Of a stretch of DNA of 64,000 bases, positions 54,827-64,000 are shown one piece after another. The DNA comes from Paeniglutamicibacter sulfureus (lineage in GTDB: Bacteria; Actinomycetota; Actinomycetes; Actinomycetales; Micrococcaceae): assembly GCF_039535115.1 (NCBI RefSeq), contig NZ_BAAAWO010000001.1, positions 1,302,001 through 1,366,000 on the forward strand. The letters run 5' to 3'. Position numbers and translations under genes: made by a program. Under the pieces are notes generated by a model that was given only the letters and a program-made list of their open reading frames with translations, was not told where the DNA came from and searched no databases. Position 1 is the stretch's first letter; each line of letters starts with the position of its first letter.

Positions 54827-55318
54827 ATGCGTCAAAATAGTTCATTGACCGCCGAGCAGCGGCTGGCTGCCGTCGATCTTTTCGAGCAGGGAATCGGGCA
54901 TAAGGCGGTATCCTCAAGACTGAACGCCGGTGAACACGCCGTTCGTGGGCTCGAGAAACGGTTCAGGATTTGGGGTAGGGCAGCGTTGGAAAGCAAACCG
55001 ACCAATCAGGTGTATTCCTTCGAGTTCAAGCTCGCGGTCGTCCGCCAGTTCCTCGACGGCGAGGCGACGCTGATGGAGCTTGCCCAACGACACCGGCTCA
55101 GCTCCCCGAACCTTCTCAGGACCTGGGTCAGGACCTACCGGGAACAGGGCGAGGACGGGCTGCGTCCCAAGGCCAAGGGCCGTCCCAAGACCGCTTCCGG
55201 CGCCGAAGCGGGTGGACCCACCGAACTCGAGAAGCTGCGCCGCGAGAACCAGCGGCTGCAGGCGGAGAATGCATACCTAAAAAAAGTTCGGGCCTTGAGG
55301 AACCAACCACCGCGCTGA
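54827..55318 (+). CDS. IS3-family transposase OrfA (HTH protein)
   Basis: This 163-residue protein has two helix-turn-helix units, LTAEQRLAAVDLFEQGIGHK and FKLAVVRQFLDGEATLMELA followed by QRHRLSSPNLLRTWVRTYRE, and a C-terminal leucine-zipper-like coiled coil (LEKLRRENQRLQAENAYLKK) that mediates multimerisation. OrfA binds the IS ends. It ends just after the frameshift site. Confidence 0.95.
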   Translation: MRQNSSLTAEQRLAAVDLFEQGIGHKAVSSRLNAGEHAVRGLEKRFRIWGRAALESKPTNQVYSFEFKLAVVRQFLDGEATLMELAQRHRLSSPNLLRTWVRTYREQGEDGLRPKAKGRPKTASGAEAGGPTELEKLRRENQRLQAENAYLKKVRALRNQPPR

Positions 55319-55332
55319 AAATCAGCGCGGTG
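55279..55332 (+). promoter_or_regulatory. programmed -1 frameshift site (A7 and stem-loop)
   Basis: CTAAAAAAAG (A7 at 55279-55285) in the OrfA frame is followed 22 nt later by the stem CACCGCGCTGA / TCAGCGCGGTG (55308-55318 / 55322-55332). A -1 shift on A7 continues as SSGLEEPTTALKISAVIALK straight into OrfB, giving the active OrfAB transposase. Confidence 0.85.
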
Positions 55333-56169
55333 ATCGCCCTCAAGGCCTCCCACCCCTTGCCCCTGCTCCTGGCCGCTGCCGGGCTTCCCCGCTCCACGTT
55401 CTTCCACCGCCAGGCCGCGCTCAAGGCACCGGACCGGCACGCGGAGCTCCGCGCACGGATCCACGAGATCTTCACCAAGGCCATGGGCCGGTACGGGCAC
55501 CGCCGCATCCACGCCGAATTGCTCGGCGGCGGGTGGCAGGTGGCGAAGAAGACCGTGCTGAAGCTGATGCGCGCCGAGGGCCTGGTCTGCAAGGTCCGCA
55601 GCAAGCGAAGGTATGCCTCCTACAAGGGCACTGTCGGCAAGGTCGCCGAAAACCTGCTGAAGCGCCAGTTCGACACCGAGGCACCGAACCTGAAGTGGGT
55701 GACCGACGTGACCGAATTCAAGATTGCCGACAGGAAGGTCTATCTTTCGCCGGTGCTGGACCTGTTCGACCGCTCGATCGTTTCCTACTCGGTGTCGCAG
55801 TCCCCGACCGTGGCCTTCGCCAACCAATCGCTTAGCGAGGCCATCGGGACCCTGGCCGCGGGCGAGGCGCCGATGGTGCACTCGGACCAGGGATTCCAGT
55901 ACCAGCACGCCAGCTGGCAGAGGCTGCTGGCCGACGCCGGCATGACCCAATCCATGTCGCGCAAGGGCAACTGCCTGGACAACGCCGTGATGGAAAACTT
56001 CTTCGGGCACCTGAAGGAAGAGATGTTCCACCACCACGAACACACCAGCGTCGAGGCGTTCACCGCCGAGCTCGACGACTACATCCACTGGTACAACTAT
56101 GACCGCATCTCGTTAACGCTCGAGTGCCTGAGCCCGATGAAATACCGGGCCCAGGCACTGGCTGCGTAG
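55330..56169 (+). CDS. IS3-family transposase OrfB (DDE domain)
   Basis: This 279-residue integrase-like domain has an HTH_21 segment (RHAELRARIHEIFTKAMGRY, GHRRIHAELL) followed by the rve core with WVTDVTEF (first Asp), PMVHSDQGFQYQHASW (second Asp) and NAVMENFFGHLKEEMFHHH (Glu). All three catalytic acids are present. It is normally expressed as an OrfAB fusion by frameshifting; the GTG at 55330 is inside the stimulatory stem-loop. Confidence 0.95.
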   Translation: MIALKASHPLPLLLAAAGLPRSTFFHRQAALKAPDRHAELRARIHEIFTKAMGRYGHRRIHAELLGGGWQVAKKTVLKLMRAEGLVCKVRSKRRYASYKGTVGKVAENLLKRQFDTEAPNLKWVTDVTEFKIADRKVYLSPVLDLFDRSIVSYSVSQSPTVAFANQSLSEAIGTLAAGEAPMVHSDQGFQYQHASWQRLLADAGMTQSMSRKGNCLDNAVMENFFGHLKEEMFHHHEHTSVEAFTAELDDYIHWYNYDRISLTLECLSPMKYRAQALAA

Positions 56170-56249: not shown

Positions 56250-58070
<1,821 letters not shown>

Positions 58071-58619
58071 TCAAGGCCAGTTCAGGACGACGACGTCACG
58101 CTCGTCGTTGGCGGGAAGCGCCGCTGCGGCGGCGTATCCCGCCAACGGGGCCTGCAACTCGCACACCGAACCGCCGGCGGCGGGCCCACCGGAACGCGCC
58201 TTGAACAGCGCCTCCCGCCGAACCCACCCTGCCGCGGCTGCCGGGTCCTTCAGATCTGCGATCCGCTGCACGTCCACTCCGACCGGTCCCATGGTGCTGA
58301 GCGCCACGACGACGAGCACCCCGGAATGCGACACGGACACCCACGGCGCGGCCATCCCCGGGTTCATGACGCGGGGCGCGCCGTGAGGTGCGCCACATTC
58401 ATTGCAGGTTCGGTCGATGGAGACGTCGGTCGGGGCAATGCCGGCATGGGAGGCGACGGCTACGCGGAGCAGCACTGCCCCCACCAGAAATCGGCCGCGG
58501 TCAGCAGGCCTTTCCAACGACTCCAGCCGGGCGCGTTCGGTGGGGTCGAGCATGTCCAATCCCCCGTGCCCGGCCGCAGTGAGCGAGGACCACCATACCT
58601 CCGCCATAAATTGCCTCAT
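58071..58619 (-). CDS. 4'-phosphopantetheinyl transferase (Sfp/EntD type)
   Basis: This 182-residue protein has the PPTase signatures VSVSHSGVLVVVALSTMGPV with GVDVQRI (Mg-binding Asp pair) and WVRREALFKARSGGP (the WxxKEAxxK-like motif). It transfers phosphopantetheine from CoA to the serine of a carrier protein. The carrier domain of the divergent ligase fusion (Ser524) is the obvious substrate. The two genes share the iron box between them. Start ATG 58619 is preceded by AGAGAAGC; ATG 58607 is an alternative. Confidence 0.92.
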   Translation of the reverse strand: MRQFMAEVWWSSLTAAGHGGLDMLDPTERARLESLERPADRGRFLVGAVLLRVAVASHAGIAPTDVSIDRTCNECGAPHGAPRVMNPGMAAPWVSVSHSGVLVVVALSTMGPVGVDVQRIADLKDPAAAAGWVRREALFKARSGGPAAGGSVCELQAPLAGYAAAAALPANDERDVVVLNWP

Positions 58620-58634
58620 GCTTCTCTTGTCTAC

Positions 58635-58653
58635 TTGCCTTAGGCTAACCTTA
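58635..58653. promoter_or_regulatory. DtxR/IdeR-type iron box
   Basis: TTGCCTTAGGCTAACCTTA matches the 19-bp mycobacterial IdeR consensus TTAGGTTAGGCTAACCTAA at 15 positions, with 13 of the last 14 identical. It lies between the divergent PPTase and ligase genes and overlaps the ligase -10 region. Fe(II)-loaded repressor bound here would block both genes when iron is plentiful. Confidence 0.75.
58646..58651 (+). promoter_or_regulatory. possible -10 box TAACCT of the iron operon
   Basis: TAACCT ends 8 nt before the GTG at 58660 and lies inside the iron box. TTAGCT (58651-58656), 18 nt from TTGTCT (58627-58632), is an alternative that would put the transcript start after this GTG. Confidence 0.4.
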
Positions 58654-58659
58654 GCTTTC

Positions 58660-61320
58660 GTGACGCAAACTCCCGTGCAAGACCTCACGGCCCCGACCCC
58701 CGGCCAGGATTCACTGCTGGACCGCGCCTTCGGCTCCCCCCGGGCGGCACGGACCGCGCTGCTGACCGCTGCCGGAAAAGCCATATCGTACGGTGAGCTG
58801 CGCGCCGCCGTGGACCGGCTCGTCCTCCATCTCCCGGACGCCGCGACCGGGAAGCGCCTGGTGCACCTGCCGTTGCGCGCCGAGGTGCACAGTGTCGCCG
58901 CCTATCTCGCGACGCTTGAGGCCGGCCACGTCGCGCTCGTGACCTCGGACGAGCCCCGGACCGCTGCCATGCTCGAGCGTTACCGGCCGGATGTGACCGC
59001 CACCGGCGACCCGGAGCACCCGTTCGAGTTCGCCTCGGGCGCCCCGCTGCATGTGCTGCACCCCGATCTGGCGCTGCTGCTGAGCACCTCCGGCAGCACC
59101 GGATCCCCCAAGCTCGTCAGGCTCTCCCATCGAAACCTGGCCGCCAATGCCTCCGCCATCGCCAAGGCACTGCGCCTCACCGAGACCGACCGGGCCATCA
59201 CCAGTCTCCCCCTGCACTACTGCTTTGGGCTCTCGGTCCTCCACTCGCACCTGGTCGCCGGAGCATCCGTCGTCCTGCACGAGGGTTCGGTCCTCGACGG
59301 CTCCCTCTGGGACGCCATCGACGGCCTCGGCGTCACCAACCTGGCCGCGGTCCCCCACATGGTCGAGCTCATGGAATCCACCGGCGTACTCGAAGCGAGC
59401 CACCCTTCGCTGCGACTGATAGCCCAGGCCGGTGGCCGCATGCACCCTGACCGTGTCCGGCGCACCGCCGACCTCGGCCGCGCGCAAGGGTGGGGACTGT
59501 CGGTGATGTACGGGCAGACGGAAGCCACCGCCCGCATCTGCGTCCTGGATCCGGCCCTGGCCGCAGTGAACCCCGACGCCGTGGGCAAGCCCGTCTCCGG
59601 AACCTCCCTGCATTTGGACACGACCGTGCCCGAGGCCGTCGACGGAGCCGGCGAAGTCGTCGTGCGCGGCCCCGGCGTCATGATGGGATACGCCGAACAC
59701 CCCGACGACCTGGCGCTTGGCCCGATGCTGACCGAGCTGCGCACCGGGGACCTCGGGCGCGTCGGGCCCGACGGGCTGCTGAGGATAGTCGGGCGGCGCT
59801 CCGGATTCGTCAAGGTCATGGGCGTGCGCATTGACGTGGGCGCCGTCGAGCATGCCCTGGATGCGGCAGGTCACACGGCGTGCGTGGGCGGGGACGGAAC
59901 CCGGCTGCTGGTCGCCGTCGAGCCCAGGACCTCAGGAGCCCCCGATGCCACCGCGGCCGAAGCCCGACGGATCGCCGGGCAGGCCTCGGGCCTGGGCGCC
60001 GCAGCAGTCGCCGTCGCGGTCACCGAGCTGCAGCGCCTGGCCAACGGGAAGCTGGACCGGCCCGGCTGCGCGGCACTGGTGCTCGCCGGCGCCGCCGGCC
60101 ATGCCACCGAGACAACGGCCCCTGCCGGGGCCAAGAGCGCGGCCGCCGAGGTCGCGAAGGTTGTCTCGGAGGTGTTGGGCACCGACTCCGTCGACCTTGG
60201 CCGCAGCTTCGTCCAGCACGGCGGGGATTCGCTCAGTCACGTCCAAGCCTCCCTCCGTCTCGAGGGCATCGTCGGGCCGCTGCCCCGCGGCTGGCACCAT
60301 CGAACCCTGTCCGAGTTGGCGGACCTGGCCGCCCACCGGCGCAACGCGCCCGCCGATCCGGGAGCCGCCGGCCTTGCCGGAACGCGCGCCCGCCCGCCCC
60401 GGATCTGGCGCACCGTGGAGACCTCCGTCGTGATGCGCGCGCTGGCCGTCGTGGCCATCTGCGGCTCCCACGCGGACCTGTTCGACGTCATGGGCGGGGC
60501 ACACCTGCTGCTGGCCATTGCCGGCTACAACACCGTCCGCTTCGGACTCTCCGCGCCCGGGGTGGCCGACAGGTGGCGGGCCACCGCACGGATCCTGATC
60601 GGCGTGGCCGTCCCGACGATGCTCATCGCGCTGTTCGCCATGCTCACCACCGGACGCTACGGATGGTCCAACATCCTGCTCAGTCACTGGCTTCTCGGCG
60701 ACACCACCGAAGGATCCACGCGCAACGAGTACTGGTTCATCGACGCCCTCGTCGCCAGCCTCCTGGTGCTCACCGCGGTGATCTCCGTTCCGGCCCTTGC
60801 CCGTGCGTGGAAGGCCGACCCCTGGCGCGTGGCCGCCTGGTTCACCGCCGCGGCCCTGGTGCCCCGGTTCGTTGTCCTGGCGCTGACGGAGGACTCGATG
60901 GCGCAATCGATCATGCCCACGACCCTGTGGCTGGTGGGCGTGGGCGCGGCCGCGGCCCATGCCGACACCCGCCGGCGCCGCTGGCTGACCCTGGCCCTGG
61001 GCGTAATCGGCGGCGCAACGTTTTTCGCCGACCAGCCCCTGCGCAATGCCGTCGTCGTCGCCGGCCTCGCCGCCCTGATCCTGGTACCACGGATGCGGGT
61101 ACCCGCGTTCCTGCTGCCCCTGCTCGGCCTGCTGGCCGCCGCCTCCCTGTACATTTACCTGGTCCAGTTCCTGGTGCTCTCCGCCTTCGAGAACGACGTT
61201 GTCGAGACGGTGGCCGCACTGGGGGTCGGATGCCTGCTCTGGCGCCTGGCCGACCGCCCCATGCGGCGCCTGCAGGACCTGGTCCCCGCACCCAACCGAT
61301 GGAATGAAAGAACGCCATGA
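58660..61320 (+). CDS. fusion of AMP-forming acyl ligase, acyl/peptidyl carrier protein and membrane acyltransferase-3
   Basis: In this 886-residue protein, residues 1 to about 470 form an adenylate-forming domain: LLLSTSGSTGSPKLVRLSHR near 143, SVMYGQTEATARICVLD near 283, ELRTGDLGRVGPDGLLRIVG near 362, and QRLANGKLDRPG with the A10 lysine near 464. Residues about 490-560 are a carrier domain with FVQHGGDSLSHVQASL (Ser524 takes phosphopantetheine). Residues about 580-880 form a 10-helix acyltransferase-3 domain. The chain should activate an acid, tether it to its own carrier and transfer it to an acceptor at the membrane. It overlaps the Fe-binding lipoprotein gene (ATGA). Substrate and acceptor are unknown. 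Confidence 0.85.
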   Translation: MTQTPVQDLTAPTPGQDSLLDRAFGSPRAARTALLTAAGKAISYGELRAAVDRLVLHLPDAATGKRLVHLPLRAEVHSVAAYLATLEAGHVALVTSDEPRTAAMLERYRPDVTATGDPEHPFEFASGAPLHVLHPDLALLLSTSGSTGSPKLVRLSHRNLAANASAIAKALRLTETDRAITSLPLHYCFGLSVLHSHLVAGASVVLHEGSVLDGSLWDAIDGLGVTNLAAVPHMVELMESTGVLEASHPSLRLIAQAGGRMHPDRVRRTADLGRAQGWGLSVMYGQTEATARICVLDPALAAVNPDAVGKPVSGTSLHLDTTVPEAVDGAGEVVVRGPGVMMGYAEHPDDLALGPMLTELRTGDLGRVGPDGLLRIVGRRSGFVKVMGVRIDVGAVEHALDAAGHTACVGGDGTRLLVAVEPRTSGAPDATAAEARRIAGQASGLGAAAVAVAVTELQRLANGKLDRPGCAALVLAGAAGHATETTAPAGAKSAAAEVAKVVSEVLGTDSVDLGRSFVQHGGDSLSHVQASLRLEGIVGPLPRGWHHRTLSELADLAAHRRNAPADPGAAGLAGTRARPPRIWRTVETSVVMRALAVVAICGSHADLFDVMGGAHLLLAIAGYNTVRFGLSAPGVADRWRATARILIGVAVPTMLIALFAMLTTGRYGWSNILLSHWLLGDTTEGSTRNEYWFIDALVASLLVLTAVISVPALARAWKADPWRVAAWFTAAALVPRFVVLALTEDSMAQSIMPTTLWLVGVGAAAAHADTRRRRWLTLALGVIGGATFFADQPLRNAVVVAGLAALILVPRMRVPAFLLPLLGLLAAASLYIYLVQFLVLSAFENDVVETVAALGVGCLLWRLADRPMRRLQDLVPAPNRWNERTP

Positions 61321-62351
61321 CCCACACACGCCGTCCCTTGCTCGCCATTGCACTCGCACTGCCGCTGGCCCTGGCCGCCTGCTCCGGCGGCCAGGCCGGC
61401 GAGGAGGCCTACGCCCCGCAGCCCGACACGCTGCAGATCTACTCCGCCCAGCACATCGAGGTCACCAAGGCCGTTGCCGCGGAGTTCACCGAGGAGACCG
61501 GCATCCCGACCCAGGTCCGCGACGGCCAGGACTCCTCCATGGGCCACATGATCGTGAAAGAGGGCAGCTCCTCTCCGGCTGACGTGTTCCTCACCGAGAA
61601 TTCCCCGGCCATGACCCTCGTCGAACGCGAGGGGCTTCTCGCGCCGGTTGACGCAACCGCCCTGGACCAGGTCCGCGACGGCCTCGCTCCGTCCTCCCGG
61701 CTCTGGGCGCCGATCGCTGCCCGGTCCACCGTGCTGGTCTACAACAAGGACCTCATCAGCGAACAGGACCTGCCGTCCTCGATGATGGAGCTCGCCGACC
61801 CGAAGTGGTCGGGCAAGTGGGGCGCCGCCCCCGGCGGCGCCGACTTCCAGGCCATCGCCGCGGGCATGCTCGCCGAACGCGGCGAGTCCGAGACCCGCGC
61901 CTGGCTTCAGGCACTGGCGGATAACGCCGAGGTGTACCAGAACAACATCGCCACGATGAAGGCGGTCAATGCCGGGGAGGTCCCGGTCGGGATCATGTAC
62001 CACTACTACTGGTACCGCGACCAGGCCGGGGACCGGCAGGGCAGCGCGAACACGGCGTTGCACTACTTCGGCGGAGAGGACCCGGGCGCGTTCGTCAGCT
62101 TGTCGGCCGGCGGGGTACTTGCCTCAAGCGACATGCCCGAGGAGGCCCAGAGGTTCCTCGAGTACGCCACCGGCCCCAAGGGACAGCGGGCCCTCGTCGA
62201 CAGCGGGTCCATGGAGTACGCGGTGGGCACCGGGACGAATTCGGACCCGGCCCTCCCGTCGCTGGAGGAATTGGAAGCCCCAGCCGTTGAGGTCTCCTCC
62301 CTCAATTCCGACCAAGTGATCGCCTTGATGACGGATGTCGGGATCCTCTAG
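61317..62351 (+). CDS. ferric iron ABC transporter substrate-binding lipoprotein
   Basis: This 344-residue protein has lipobox signal AIALALPLALAACSGG and a mature domain of the FbpA/FutA class: TLQIYSAQHIEVTKAVAAEF, TEETGIPTQVRDGQDSSMGH, SPADVFLTENSPAMTLVERE, WAPIAARSTVLVYNKDLI and VGIMYHYYWYRDQA with the tyrosine cluster that binds Fe(III). It is coupled to the ligase fusion gene (ATGA) and overlaps the permease gene by 17 nt. Confidence 0.93.
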   Translation: MTHTRRPLLAIALALPLALAACSGGQAGEEAYAPQPDTLQIYSAQHIEVTKAVAAEFTEETGIPTQVRDGQDSSMGHMIVKEGSSSPADVFLTENSPAMTLVEREGLLAPVDATALDQVRDGLAPSSRLWAPIAARSTVLVYNKDLISEQDLPSSMMELADPKWSGKWGAAPGGADFQAIAAGMLAERGESETRAWLQALADNAEVYQNNIATMKAVNAGEVPVGIMYHYYWYRDQAGDRQGSANTALHYFGGEDPGAFVSLSAGGVLASSDMPEEAQRFLEYATGPKGQRALVDSGSMEYAVGTGTNSDPALPSLEELEAPAVEVSSLNSDQVIALMTDVGIL

Positions 62352-63858
62352 CACGCGCGGCGTGGTGGCCGCCGCGACCCTCGTCGCGGCCCTCACCCTG
62401 CTGCCGGTGCTCATCGCCCTTCCCGCCGCACTCGCGGAGGGACCGGCCCGCGCGGCGGAATACCTGTTCCGGCCCCGCATCGGGAACCTGCTGGCAAACA
62501 CCGGATTGCTGGTGGCCGTCACGGTGCCGGCAGCCGTCGTGCTCGGGGCAGCCGCGGCCTGGCTCGTGGAGCGCACGGCCCTGCCCGGCGCCGCCTGGTG
62601 GCGGACCCTGCTGCTGGCGCCGTTGGCCGTCCCCTCGTTCGTCAGTGCCTACGCCTGGGTGACCGTCGCGCCGGGCCTGACCGGTTTCGCCGGGTCGGCC
62701 CTGGTGACCACCCTGGCCTACTATCCATTCGTCTTCCTGCCCGTCGCGGCGCAGTTGCGCGCCCTGGATCCGGCCGACGAGGATGCCGCCCGCTCGCTCG
62801 GGCTCTCCCCGGCCGCCGCCGTCATGCGCACCGTGCTGCCCCGGCTGCGTCCCTCGCTCAGCGGCGGCGCCCTGCTGGTGGCGCTGCACCTGCTGGCGGA
62901 GTATGGCGTCCTGGAGATGATGAGGTTCCCGACATTCACCACGGCGATCATGCAGCAATACGCGGTGGGCTTCAGCGATACCTCCGGGAGCCTGCTGGCC
63001 TCCGTGCTGGTCGGGCTGTGCCTGCTGGCGCTGTTGCTGGAGCTTCTCGCCCGGGGCAGGCGCCGCGTTGCGCGCCTGGGATCGGGGACACAGAGTCGTC
63101 CCGTGCCCCACGCCCTGGGTGCCTGGACCGCACCGGCCATGGTGTTGCTCGCGGCGCTCGTCGCCGGGGCCTTGGTGGTCCCGGTCGCCAGCGTGGGTCG
63201 ATGGCTCGCCGCCTCCGAGGGATGGGCCGGCCTGCTCGATACAGGCCTGCTGGGCGCCACCCTTGGCACGGTGGGCCTGGCAACCCTGGGCGCCGTGGCA
63301 GCGACCGCTGCCGCGCTGCCGGGTGCCTGGCTGCTGAACCGGCACCACTCCGGCCTGACCGTGGCCCTGGAGCGCGTCACCTTCGTCGCCAGCTCGCTGC
63401 CCGGCATCGTCGTCGGACTGGGGCTGGTGACCTTGGCCGTGACATGGGCGGGCCCGCTGTACCAGACCGTCACCCTGACGGTTCTGGCGTACGCCATCCT
63501 CTTCGTCCCCCGGGCCATGGTCTCACTGCGCTCCGGGCTGGCTGCGGCTCCGCCCGAGCTCTCCGAGGCCGCGCGCTCCCTTGGAACGGGCGGCACGGGC
63601 ACCCTGGTCCGGGTCGTCCTGCCGTTGATGGCGCCCTCCGTGATGACGGGCCTTGTCCTGGTGGCGCTGGCCGTCAGCACCGAACTGACGGCCACGCTGC
63701 TGCTCGCCCCCACCGGGACCGAGACCTTGGCCCTGGCCTTCTGGCGCGAGGCCAGCCAACTCGACTACGCCGCCGCGGCCCCGTATGCCGCCGTGATGAT
63801 TGCCCTGTCCGTGCCCCTGACCCTGCTGCTGCGGCGGCAGATCCTGGAGGAGAAATGA
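62335..63858 (+). CDS. ferric iron ABC transporter permease (fused, FbpB type)
   Basis: This 507-residue membrane protein is built from two similar halves of about six helices. Each half ends in an EAA loop: LDPADEDAARSLGLSPAAAV in the first, LSEAARSLGTGGTGTLVRVV in the second. The single-chain permease is typical of FbpB/FutB Fe(III) transporters. It overlaps the binding-protein gene upstream and the ATPase gene downstream (ATGA). Confidence 0.93.
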   Translation: MSGSSSTRGVVAAATLVAALTLLPVLIALPAALAEGPARAAEYLFRPRIGNLLANTGLLVAVTVPAAVVLGAAAAWLVERTALPGAAWWRTLLLAPLAVPSFVSAYAWVTVAPGLTGFAGSALVTTLAYYPFVFLPVAAQLRALDPADEDAARSLGLSPAAAVMRTVLPRLRPSLSGGALLVALHLLAEYGVLEMMRFPTFTTAIMQQYAVGFSDTSGSLLASVLVGLCLLALLLELLARGRRRVARLGSGTQSRPVPHALGAWTAPAMVLLAALVAGALVVPVASVGRWLAASEGWAGLLDTGLLGATLGTVGLATLGAVAATAAALPGAWLLNRHHSGLTVALERVTFVASSLPGIVVGLGLVTLAVTWAGPLYQTVTLTVLAYAILFVPRAMVSLRSGLAAAPPELSEAARSLGTGGTGTLVRVVLPLMAPSVMTGLVLVALAVSTELTATLLLAPTGTETLALAFWREASQLDYAAAAPYAAVMIALSVPLTLLLRRQILEEK

Positions 63859-64000
63859 CCGAACTCAAGGTCCGTGCCGTCTCGGCCGACTACGGCCTCG
63901 ACGCGGTGCTCAAGTCCGTCGACCTCACCGTGGCGGAGGGCACGACGATGGCCGTGCTGGGTGGGTCCGGCAGCGGCAAGACAACGCTGCTGCGCATCAT
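63855..64000 (+). CDS. ferric iron ABC transporter ATPase, truncated by window edge
   Basis: The first 48 codons are visible: MTELKVRAVSADYGLDAVLK, then the Walker A VLGGSGSGKTTLLRII. The rest lies outside the window. It starts at an ATG overlapping the permease stop and completes the FbpABC-type transporter. Confidence 0.93.
   Translation, partial: MTELKVRAVSADYGLDAVLKSVDLTVAEGTTMAVLGGSGSGKTTLLRI

Follow-up and report, generated by a model that had tools for sequence, protein, structure and literature searches.

Why should the operon of a ferric iron importer open with a gene for an enzyme that looks built to activate an acid and to transfer it at the membrane? The question is raised by a stretch of 64,000 nucleotides of Paeniglutamicibacter sulfureus (contig NZ_BAAAWO010000001.1, positions 1,302,001 to 1,366,000; hereafter the window, that is, the whole stretch of DNA analysed), in which five genes occupy the segment from position 58071 to the window end: a phosphopantetheinyl transferase (PPTase) gene on the minus strand and, divergent from it, genes of an adenylation-carrier-transmembrane acyltransferase fusion (A-T-TmAT), a substrate-binding protein (SBP), a permease and an ABC ATPase. 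The host genome is a single contig of 4.57 Mb, and the nearest named relative among the fusion loci found belongs to P. sulfureus (98% identity). The first-pass annotation had described an 886-residue fusion, a divergent PPTase gene, a DtxR/IdeR-type box between them and an FbpABC-type transporter thereafter, and this layout is borne out by the open reading frames, Pfam searches and a box scan. The occurrence of the fusion beside a ferric importer in many actinobacteria points to an undescribed way to gather iron. We consider it somewhat probable that these genes form an iron-starvation module, in which the fusion loads a small acid and passes it over the membrane, and the resulting product aids the delivery of Fe(III) to the FbpABC importer.

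Association of the fusion with ferric iron transport

With the fusion as the query, a close set of 30 loci was retrieved, of which four, carrying only a ligase (L054-L057), do not enter the synteny counts. In 17 of the remaining 26 the genes follow the order PPTase-fusion-SBP-permease-ATPase, as in the window; two loci of Nocardioides have the order SBP-permease-ATPase-fusion, four contain the PPTase and fusion genes only (one of them on a 4-kb contig), and three the fusion alone. Within the window's genus, a close fusion is present in 3 of 14 genomes and a distant one in 1 more. A class-wide sample of 394 actinomycete genomes from 138 genera, searched with a cut-off of E 1e-60, gave fusion matches in 70 genomes and 28 genera. 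The match reaches the membrane domain (full fusion) in 63 of the 394 genomes; the other 7 matches stop short of it and were counted with the 331 others. SBP matches at E 1e-12 or better occur in 121 of the 394 genomes: an FbpA-type binding protein is present in all 63 full-fusion genomes versus 58 of the 331 others, and in 48 of the 63 the fusion and SBP genes lie no more than 10 kb apart.

While this proximity count covers all 63 genomes, gene arrangements were counted in 40 of the 70 matching genomes, compared with their flanks (a nearly identical Kocuria pair, P0144 and P0145, perhaps an assembly double, was left out). The transporter is nearby in 33 of these 40 distant loci and absent from 7. 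The fusion comes first in 6 of the 33 and the SBP in 12, the two are divergent in 7 and convergent in 6, and the order is SBP-permease-fusion in 2. At least five gene orders thus link fusion and SBP. When mapped onto a 71-fusion tree, built by a quick method and with some forks open, the labels for the arrangement, 'none' being one of them, call for a minimum of 17 changes, and the label for the SBP subfamily for 4. That the link was retained or rebuilt over so many changes is most readily understood if the two share a task. Conservation of the neighbourhood across genera, the check set beforehand for the first-pass proposal, is borne out. No other gene cluster stands near the fusion in more than 5 of 37 loci, or in more than 7 of the 40 distant ones. 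The mycobacterial-type fusions share one common neighbourhood, with the transporter in L100, L103, L104, L106, L108 and L116; L051, L052 and L113 have the same neighbourhood without transporter and box, which suggests a loss in the lineage. A serine-recombinase-like gene, named by eye (L029:7126-7740), adjoins one PPTase-fusion pair that lacks the transporter.

The box of the window lies at 58635..58653, in the divergent promoter region. The IdeR target is described as a 19-bp palindrome in PMC8464063. Sites were scored as matches out of 19 to a DtxR/IdeR-type consensus that is independent of this paper. At 15/19, the box is the top site of the 64-kb window, the sole other site of at least 13/19 being an overlapping register at 58640. 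All 17 close relatives in which the fusion comes first have a box of 14-16/19 that lies upstream of the estimated start of the fusion by 43 bases or less. In both Nocardioides loci, it is the SBP gene, the first one there, that a 15/19 site precedes. Sites of at least 13/19 are found at the fusion or SBP start in 35 of the 40 distant loci, as against 9 of 483 other upstream regions, 8 of which share their intergenic region with the fusion or SBP gene and so count the identical site. Such sites also stand at the fusion in 16 of the 20 fusion loci without a transporter on the stretch compared, and the enzyme therefore looks iron-controlled in its own right; where the SBP gene is located elsewhere (15 fusion genomes), its operon carries such a site in 14. 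The host genome has three Fe_dep_repr_C matches of the DtxR family, a domain family that includes other metal regulators too. With a promoter box and repressor candidates both present, binding of a DtxR/IdeR-type repressor is predicted.

As for the transporter, the SBP gene (61317..62351, plus strand) encodes a ferric-binding lipoprotein of the FbpA/SfuA type, which matches the YfuA, SfuA, HitA and FbpA structures in phmmer searches with E down to 8e-98. We take its residues H46, E94, Y230 and Y231 to be the metal-site ligands. Among 54 SBP rows from fusion loci, a number that counts the window twice (as L058) and also includes its near copy L028, the Tyr pair is present in 54, the His in 45 and the Glu in 44, and most rows without His and Glu belong to a second subfamily, which has Asn/Gln there instead. 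The FbpB-type two-fold permease (62335..63858, plus strand, 507 aa) gives PF00528 in two stretches. The FbpC-type ATPase gene (63855..64000, plus strand) is cut by the window end, which leaves its 5' part; in the genome it ends at G000:C1:1366955 (L058:6955), and the full-length protein of 366 aa contains both PF00005 and TOBE_2. Given the metal-site residues together with a permease and an ATPase, Fe(III) transport is predicted, in agreement with the ferric transporter named in the first-pass annotation. The genes had also been said to form an operon by ATGA overlaps; such overlaps do exist at the fusion-SBP and permease-ATPase junctions, whereas the SBP and permease genes overlap by 17 bp (62335-62351). 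On the whole, the comparative evidence of boxes, linkage, co-occurrence and ferric-site residues gives good support both to iron regulation and to a functional link with the import of Fe(III). Beside a distant PPTase-fusion pair, a siderophore-type binding protein is encoded at L063:10074-10868 (Peripla_BP_2, 59.2 bits), and an FbpA-type protein was not found on this 10.9-kb contig.

Domains and residues of the fusion enzyme

The fusion gene (58660..61320, plus strand) has a GTG start at 58660 and a stop codon at 61318-61320. Residue counts given below refer to 71 aligned fusion rows, from which L028 and L058 were excluded as near copies of the window. The adenylation (ligase) domain, residues about 16-476 (58705..60087, plus strand), was delimited by PF00501, the ANL fold and an alignment with LgrA; the AMP-binding family scores 138.7 bits against a Pfam cut-off of 29.9. 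The AMP-binding fold, seen both with PF00501 and in fold searches, is accompanied by the A10 lysine, Lys464, which is conserved in 71/71 rows, as in ANL acyl/aryl acid ligases. The position equivalent to 235, set by the LgrA alignment, is Cys188 in the fusion. Over the 71 rows it is occupied by Cys (61), Thr (4), Val (4) or Ser (2), and the Asp that marks amino-acid-activating adenylation domains of nonribosomal peptide synthetases (NRPS) is absent from all of them. Hits of a fold search with the whole fusion model were dominated by the ligase domain, which has a general acid-ligase fold. The ligases of L054-L057 are 39-43% identical to this domain; three of these four loci have neighbours resembling acyl carrier protein, LuxE and LuxC (named by eye), and R292 is a position common to three of the four ligases. 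Clusters such as these may reveal the acid used by the ligase clade.

The carrier (thiolation) domain (60130..60354, plus strand) was not reported by PF00550 in the whole-chain Pfam scan, and the isolated segment scores 24.2 bits against a cut-off of 20.8. Its GGDSL serine, residue 524 (codon 60229-60231), is intact, as the first-pass annotation had it, and is kept in all 71 rows, the window among them. The PPTase gene (58071..58619, minus strand) encodes an AASDHPPT/Sfp-like protein with 27.7 bits for PF22624 (AASDHPPT_N, cut-off 27). Its motifs VSVSHSG, VGVDVQR and W..REA..KA are conserved, if slightly varied, over an alignment of 23 rows, which includes the window and its copies, and the residue following GVDV is Q or E. 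That this PPTase is dedicated to the fusion, as had been proposed, holds for the close clade, where 21 of the 26 loci have it as a neighbour of the fusion, but not for the 40 distant loci, in none of which a PPTase was recognised within 6.5 kb of the fusion (BLASTP at E 1e-8 with the window's PPTase as the query).

The C-terminal membrane domain (60391..61317, plus strand) scores 22.2 bits for Acyl_transf_3 in the whole chain and 25.4 bits as an isolated segment, neither of which reaches the Pfam cut-off of 31; precomputed PF01757 assignments are present on many of the 120 relatives listed. In the AlphaFold2 model, ten transmembrane helices (TMH), counted by hand from the listed elements, are seen, the ninth of them kinked and bearing S829 and Y833. 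The R-x10-H motif of TMH1 (R593 and H604) is found in 71/71 rows. Despite the sub-threshold Pfam score, the helix count and this motif uphold the earlier assignment of a 10-helix acyltransferase-3 (AT3) domain. Compared with the AT3/TmAT family features given in PMC9833829 and PMC12423673, the TMH1 Arg is retained, while the Asp of DxxR is absent (V/I/A/S at 590 in 71/71 rows), as is the Phe of FxxxxG in TMH2 (L or M at 617 in 71/71 rows). The window also lacks the TMH3 motif RxxR, having R638, R640 and R644 instead; its first Arg column is kept in 68/71 rows, and the motif occurs in some register in 41/71, for which reason a loss of this acyl-CoA site across the whole family was considered and dropped. 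Foldseek with the TmAT domain alone gave no match at E 0.001 or better, and the match to HGSNAT comes from the VIA-align comparison only. Judging by these sequence features, the membrane domain should act as a TmAT does, with divergence at two sites, the Asp of TMH1 and the Phe of TMH2.

Proposed mechanism and its alternatives

The activity of the module could be imagined as follows. Under iron shortage, the box would be vacated by a DtxR/IdeR-type repressor, and the fusion, the PPTase and the FbpABC importer would be made. The PPTase would arm Ser524 of the carrier, and the ligase would adenylate one particular small carboxylic acid, probably no ordinary alpha-amino acid, and load it onto the carrier. 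The TmAT domain would then accept the acyl-phosphopantetheine not from CoA but from the carrier to which it is joined, and hand the acyl group via a pore in the membrane to an acceptor outside. The product of this acylation, either a small ligand or one associated with the membrane, would finally present Fe(III) to the FbpA-type lipoprotein. Since no further linked gene is conserved, the acceptor must be something that actinomycetes of very different kinds possess, and both a common metabolite and a common envelope component fit this demand. Domain order and fold, the invariant catalytic residues, the box positions, the linkage and the co-occurrence come directly from the analysis. Acylation at the membrane, proposed in the first-pass annotation, follows from the TmAT-like domain, while the acylated target, the acyl group and the iron-binding product, together with iron repression, the carrier-bound donor and the direction of transfer, are what we infer.

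We regard the donor as a carrier-bound acyl group chiefly because the carrier sits in the same chain, the residues alone being indecisive. One review (PMC9558356) favours acyl-CoA over donors bound to acyl carrier protein for AT3 enzymes, and the presence of RxxR in 41/71 rows weakens the case for a carrier-bound donor; further AT3/TmAT residues are linked to acyl-CoA binding in PMC9833829 and PMC12423673. A special case of the general mechanism, in which a small ligand is combined with a carrier-bound donor, can be put forward only tentatively: the ligase-carrier-TmAT chain would itself make the Fe(III) ligand of FbpABC and export it over the membrane in a single step, as a one-enzyme siderophore-like route that is widespread among actinomycetes and independent of both NRPS and NRPS-independent siderophore (NIS) synthetases. 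Should the module work as proposed, about 1 in 6 of the sampled actinomycete genomes (63/394) would hold an iron route invisible to NRPS/NIS searches, the FbpABC-type importers there would have a dedicated partner, and there would be an example of a transmembrane acyltransferase supplied by a carrier domain of its own chain; the route as such would count as a new type, provided that its product turns out to be an iron ligand.

A rather doubtful alternative is that the fusion remodels the envelope, acylating a cell-wall polymer, glycolipid or lipoprotein under iron stress, so that the surface is altered and no soluble ligand is made. The AT3 proteins treated in PMC9558356 act mostly on extracytoplasmic glycans, and an envelope acceptor would occur in very different cells, as the lack of any other widely conserved neighbour implies. 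By itself, however, envelope remodelling leaves unexplained both the FbpA-type protein in every full-fusion genome and a linkage lasting through several rearrangements.

Tailoring of a siderophore from another locus, hydroxamate or NRPS-made, e.g., for its retention at the membrane, was judged unlikely after searches with PF04183 and PF00668. The earlier statement that no other siderophore synthesis genes are visible holds within the operon, but elsewhere in this genome there is a single IucA/IucC (PF04183) match, about 360 kb from the fusion and not linked to it; no NRPS condensation domain (PF00668) was found in this genome. By composition, the IucA/IucC locus (L066:5544-10824, G000:C1:1720544-1725824) is a putative desferrioxamine-type one, with a pyridoxal-phosphate decarboxylase, a Lys/Orn monooxygenase and a GNAT-IucA/IucC-FhuF chain, and it carries a box of its own (14/19 at L066:5483). 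Besides this locus, it speaks for tailoring that IucA/IucC occurs in 13 of 33 fusion genomes, a set not all distinct (G060 resembles G004, and G077 resembles G044), and condensation domains in 7 of the 30 genomes that are left when three near-copies or doubles are removed. Against tailoring, 15 of the 30 have neither family, among them Cellulomonas aerilata (L036) and Georgenia thermotolerans (L043), both with the complete operon, although only these two were searched and some genomes are incomplete, and the linked importer is of the FbpA type, not of a siderophore-binding type, with L063 as the one exception. That the fusion is a mere bystander, an acyl-lipid or storage enzyme sharing only iron regulation and a hitch-hiking neighbourhood, is very improbable: the general acid-ligase fold and the mycobacterial L051 and L052, which hold their position yet lack transporter and box, would suit it, but not the five gene orders, the two SBP subfamilies and the 63/63 co-occurrence.

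The proposed iron-delivery module resembles several known systems in part. The aryl-acid siderophore starters EntE/DhbE with their carriers likewise combine an acid ligase and a carrier under iron control; here, no condensation domain is linked, and position 235 holds Cys, Thr, Val or Ser versus Asn of the aryl-acid code. In D-alanylation, DltA, DltC and DltB form a relay of ligase, carrier and membrane acyltransferase across the membrane, whereas the present enzyme is a single iron-linked chain, TmAT-like rather than MBOAT, without the amino-acid Asp in its ligase. Classical FbpABC-type operons are known with the three transporter genes only. The present transporter is like FbpABC/SfuABC/YfuABC in its SBP near YfuA/SfuA, with His, Glu and Tyr-Tyr at positions which we take to be those of the metal site, in its fused two-fold permease and in its ATPase with a TOBE domain, and differs in its link to an acyl-activating membrane enzyme. 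With the AT3/TmAT proteins OafB, OatA and HGSNAT the membrane domain shares the 10-TMH fold, R-x10-H in TMH1 and Ser/Tyr in a kinked TMH9, and transfer across the membrane is to be expected; it differs in the DxxR Asp and TMH2 Phe missing, in the window also RxxR, and in its N-terminal fusion to a ligase and carrier of its own, PMC9833829, PMC9558356 and PMC12423673 naming other fusions, with SGNH, alanine racemase and NRF. Epsilon-poly-lysine synthetase and PosA (PMC10522769) also unite adenylation, carrier and membrane parts in one chain, while the fusion has a TmAT-like domain, no tandem condensation-like domains and no Asp at 235. The parts thus fall in known families; among open-licence papers (subscription papers and preprints lying outside this scope), we recognised none that describes the fusion enzyme or the operon, or the tie of the ligase-carrier-TmAT chain to FbpABC.

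Surroundings of the module

Upstream of the module, a two-ORF transposase (IS3-like by layout, with transposase hits in PHROGs) is located at 54827-56169 of the window and adjoins an IMP dehydrogenase-like gene, named by eye (56250-57755, minus strand). On the downstream side, a transposase and ATPase pair was identified by eye some 1.8 kb beyond the operon (L058:8765-11094); mobile elements therefore flank the module on both sides within a few kb. Further downstream, L058:13966-16134 encodes a second acyltransferase-like membrane protein, the C-terminal part of which is SGNH-like by eye.

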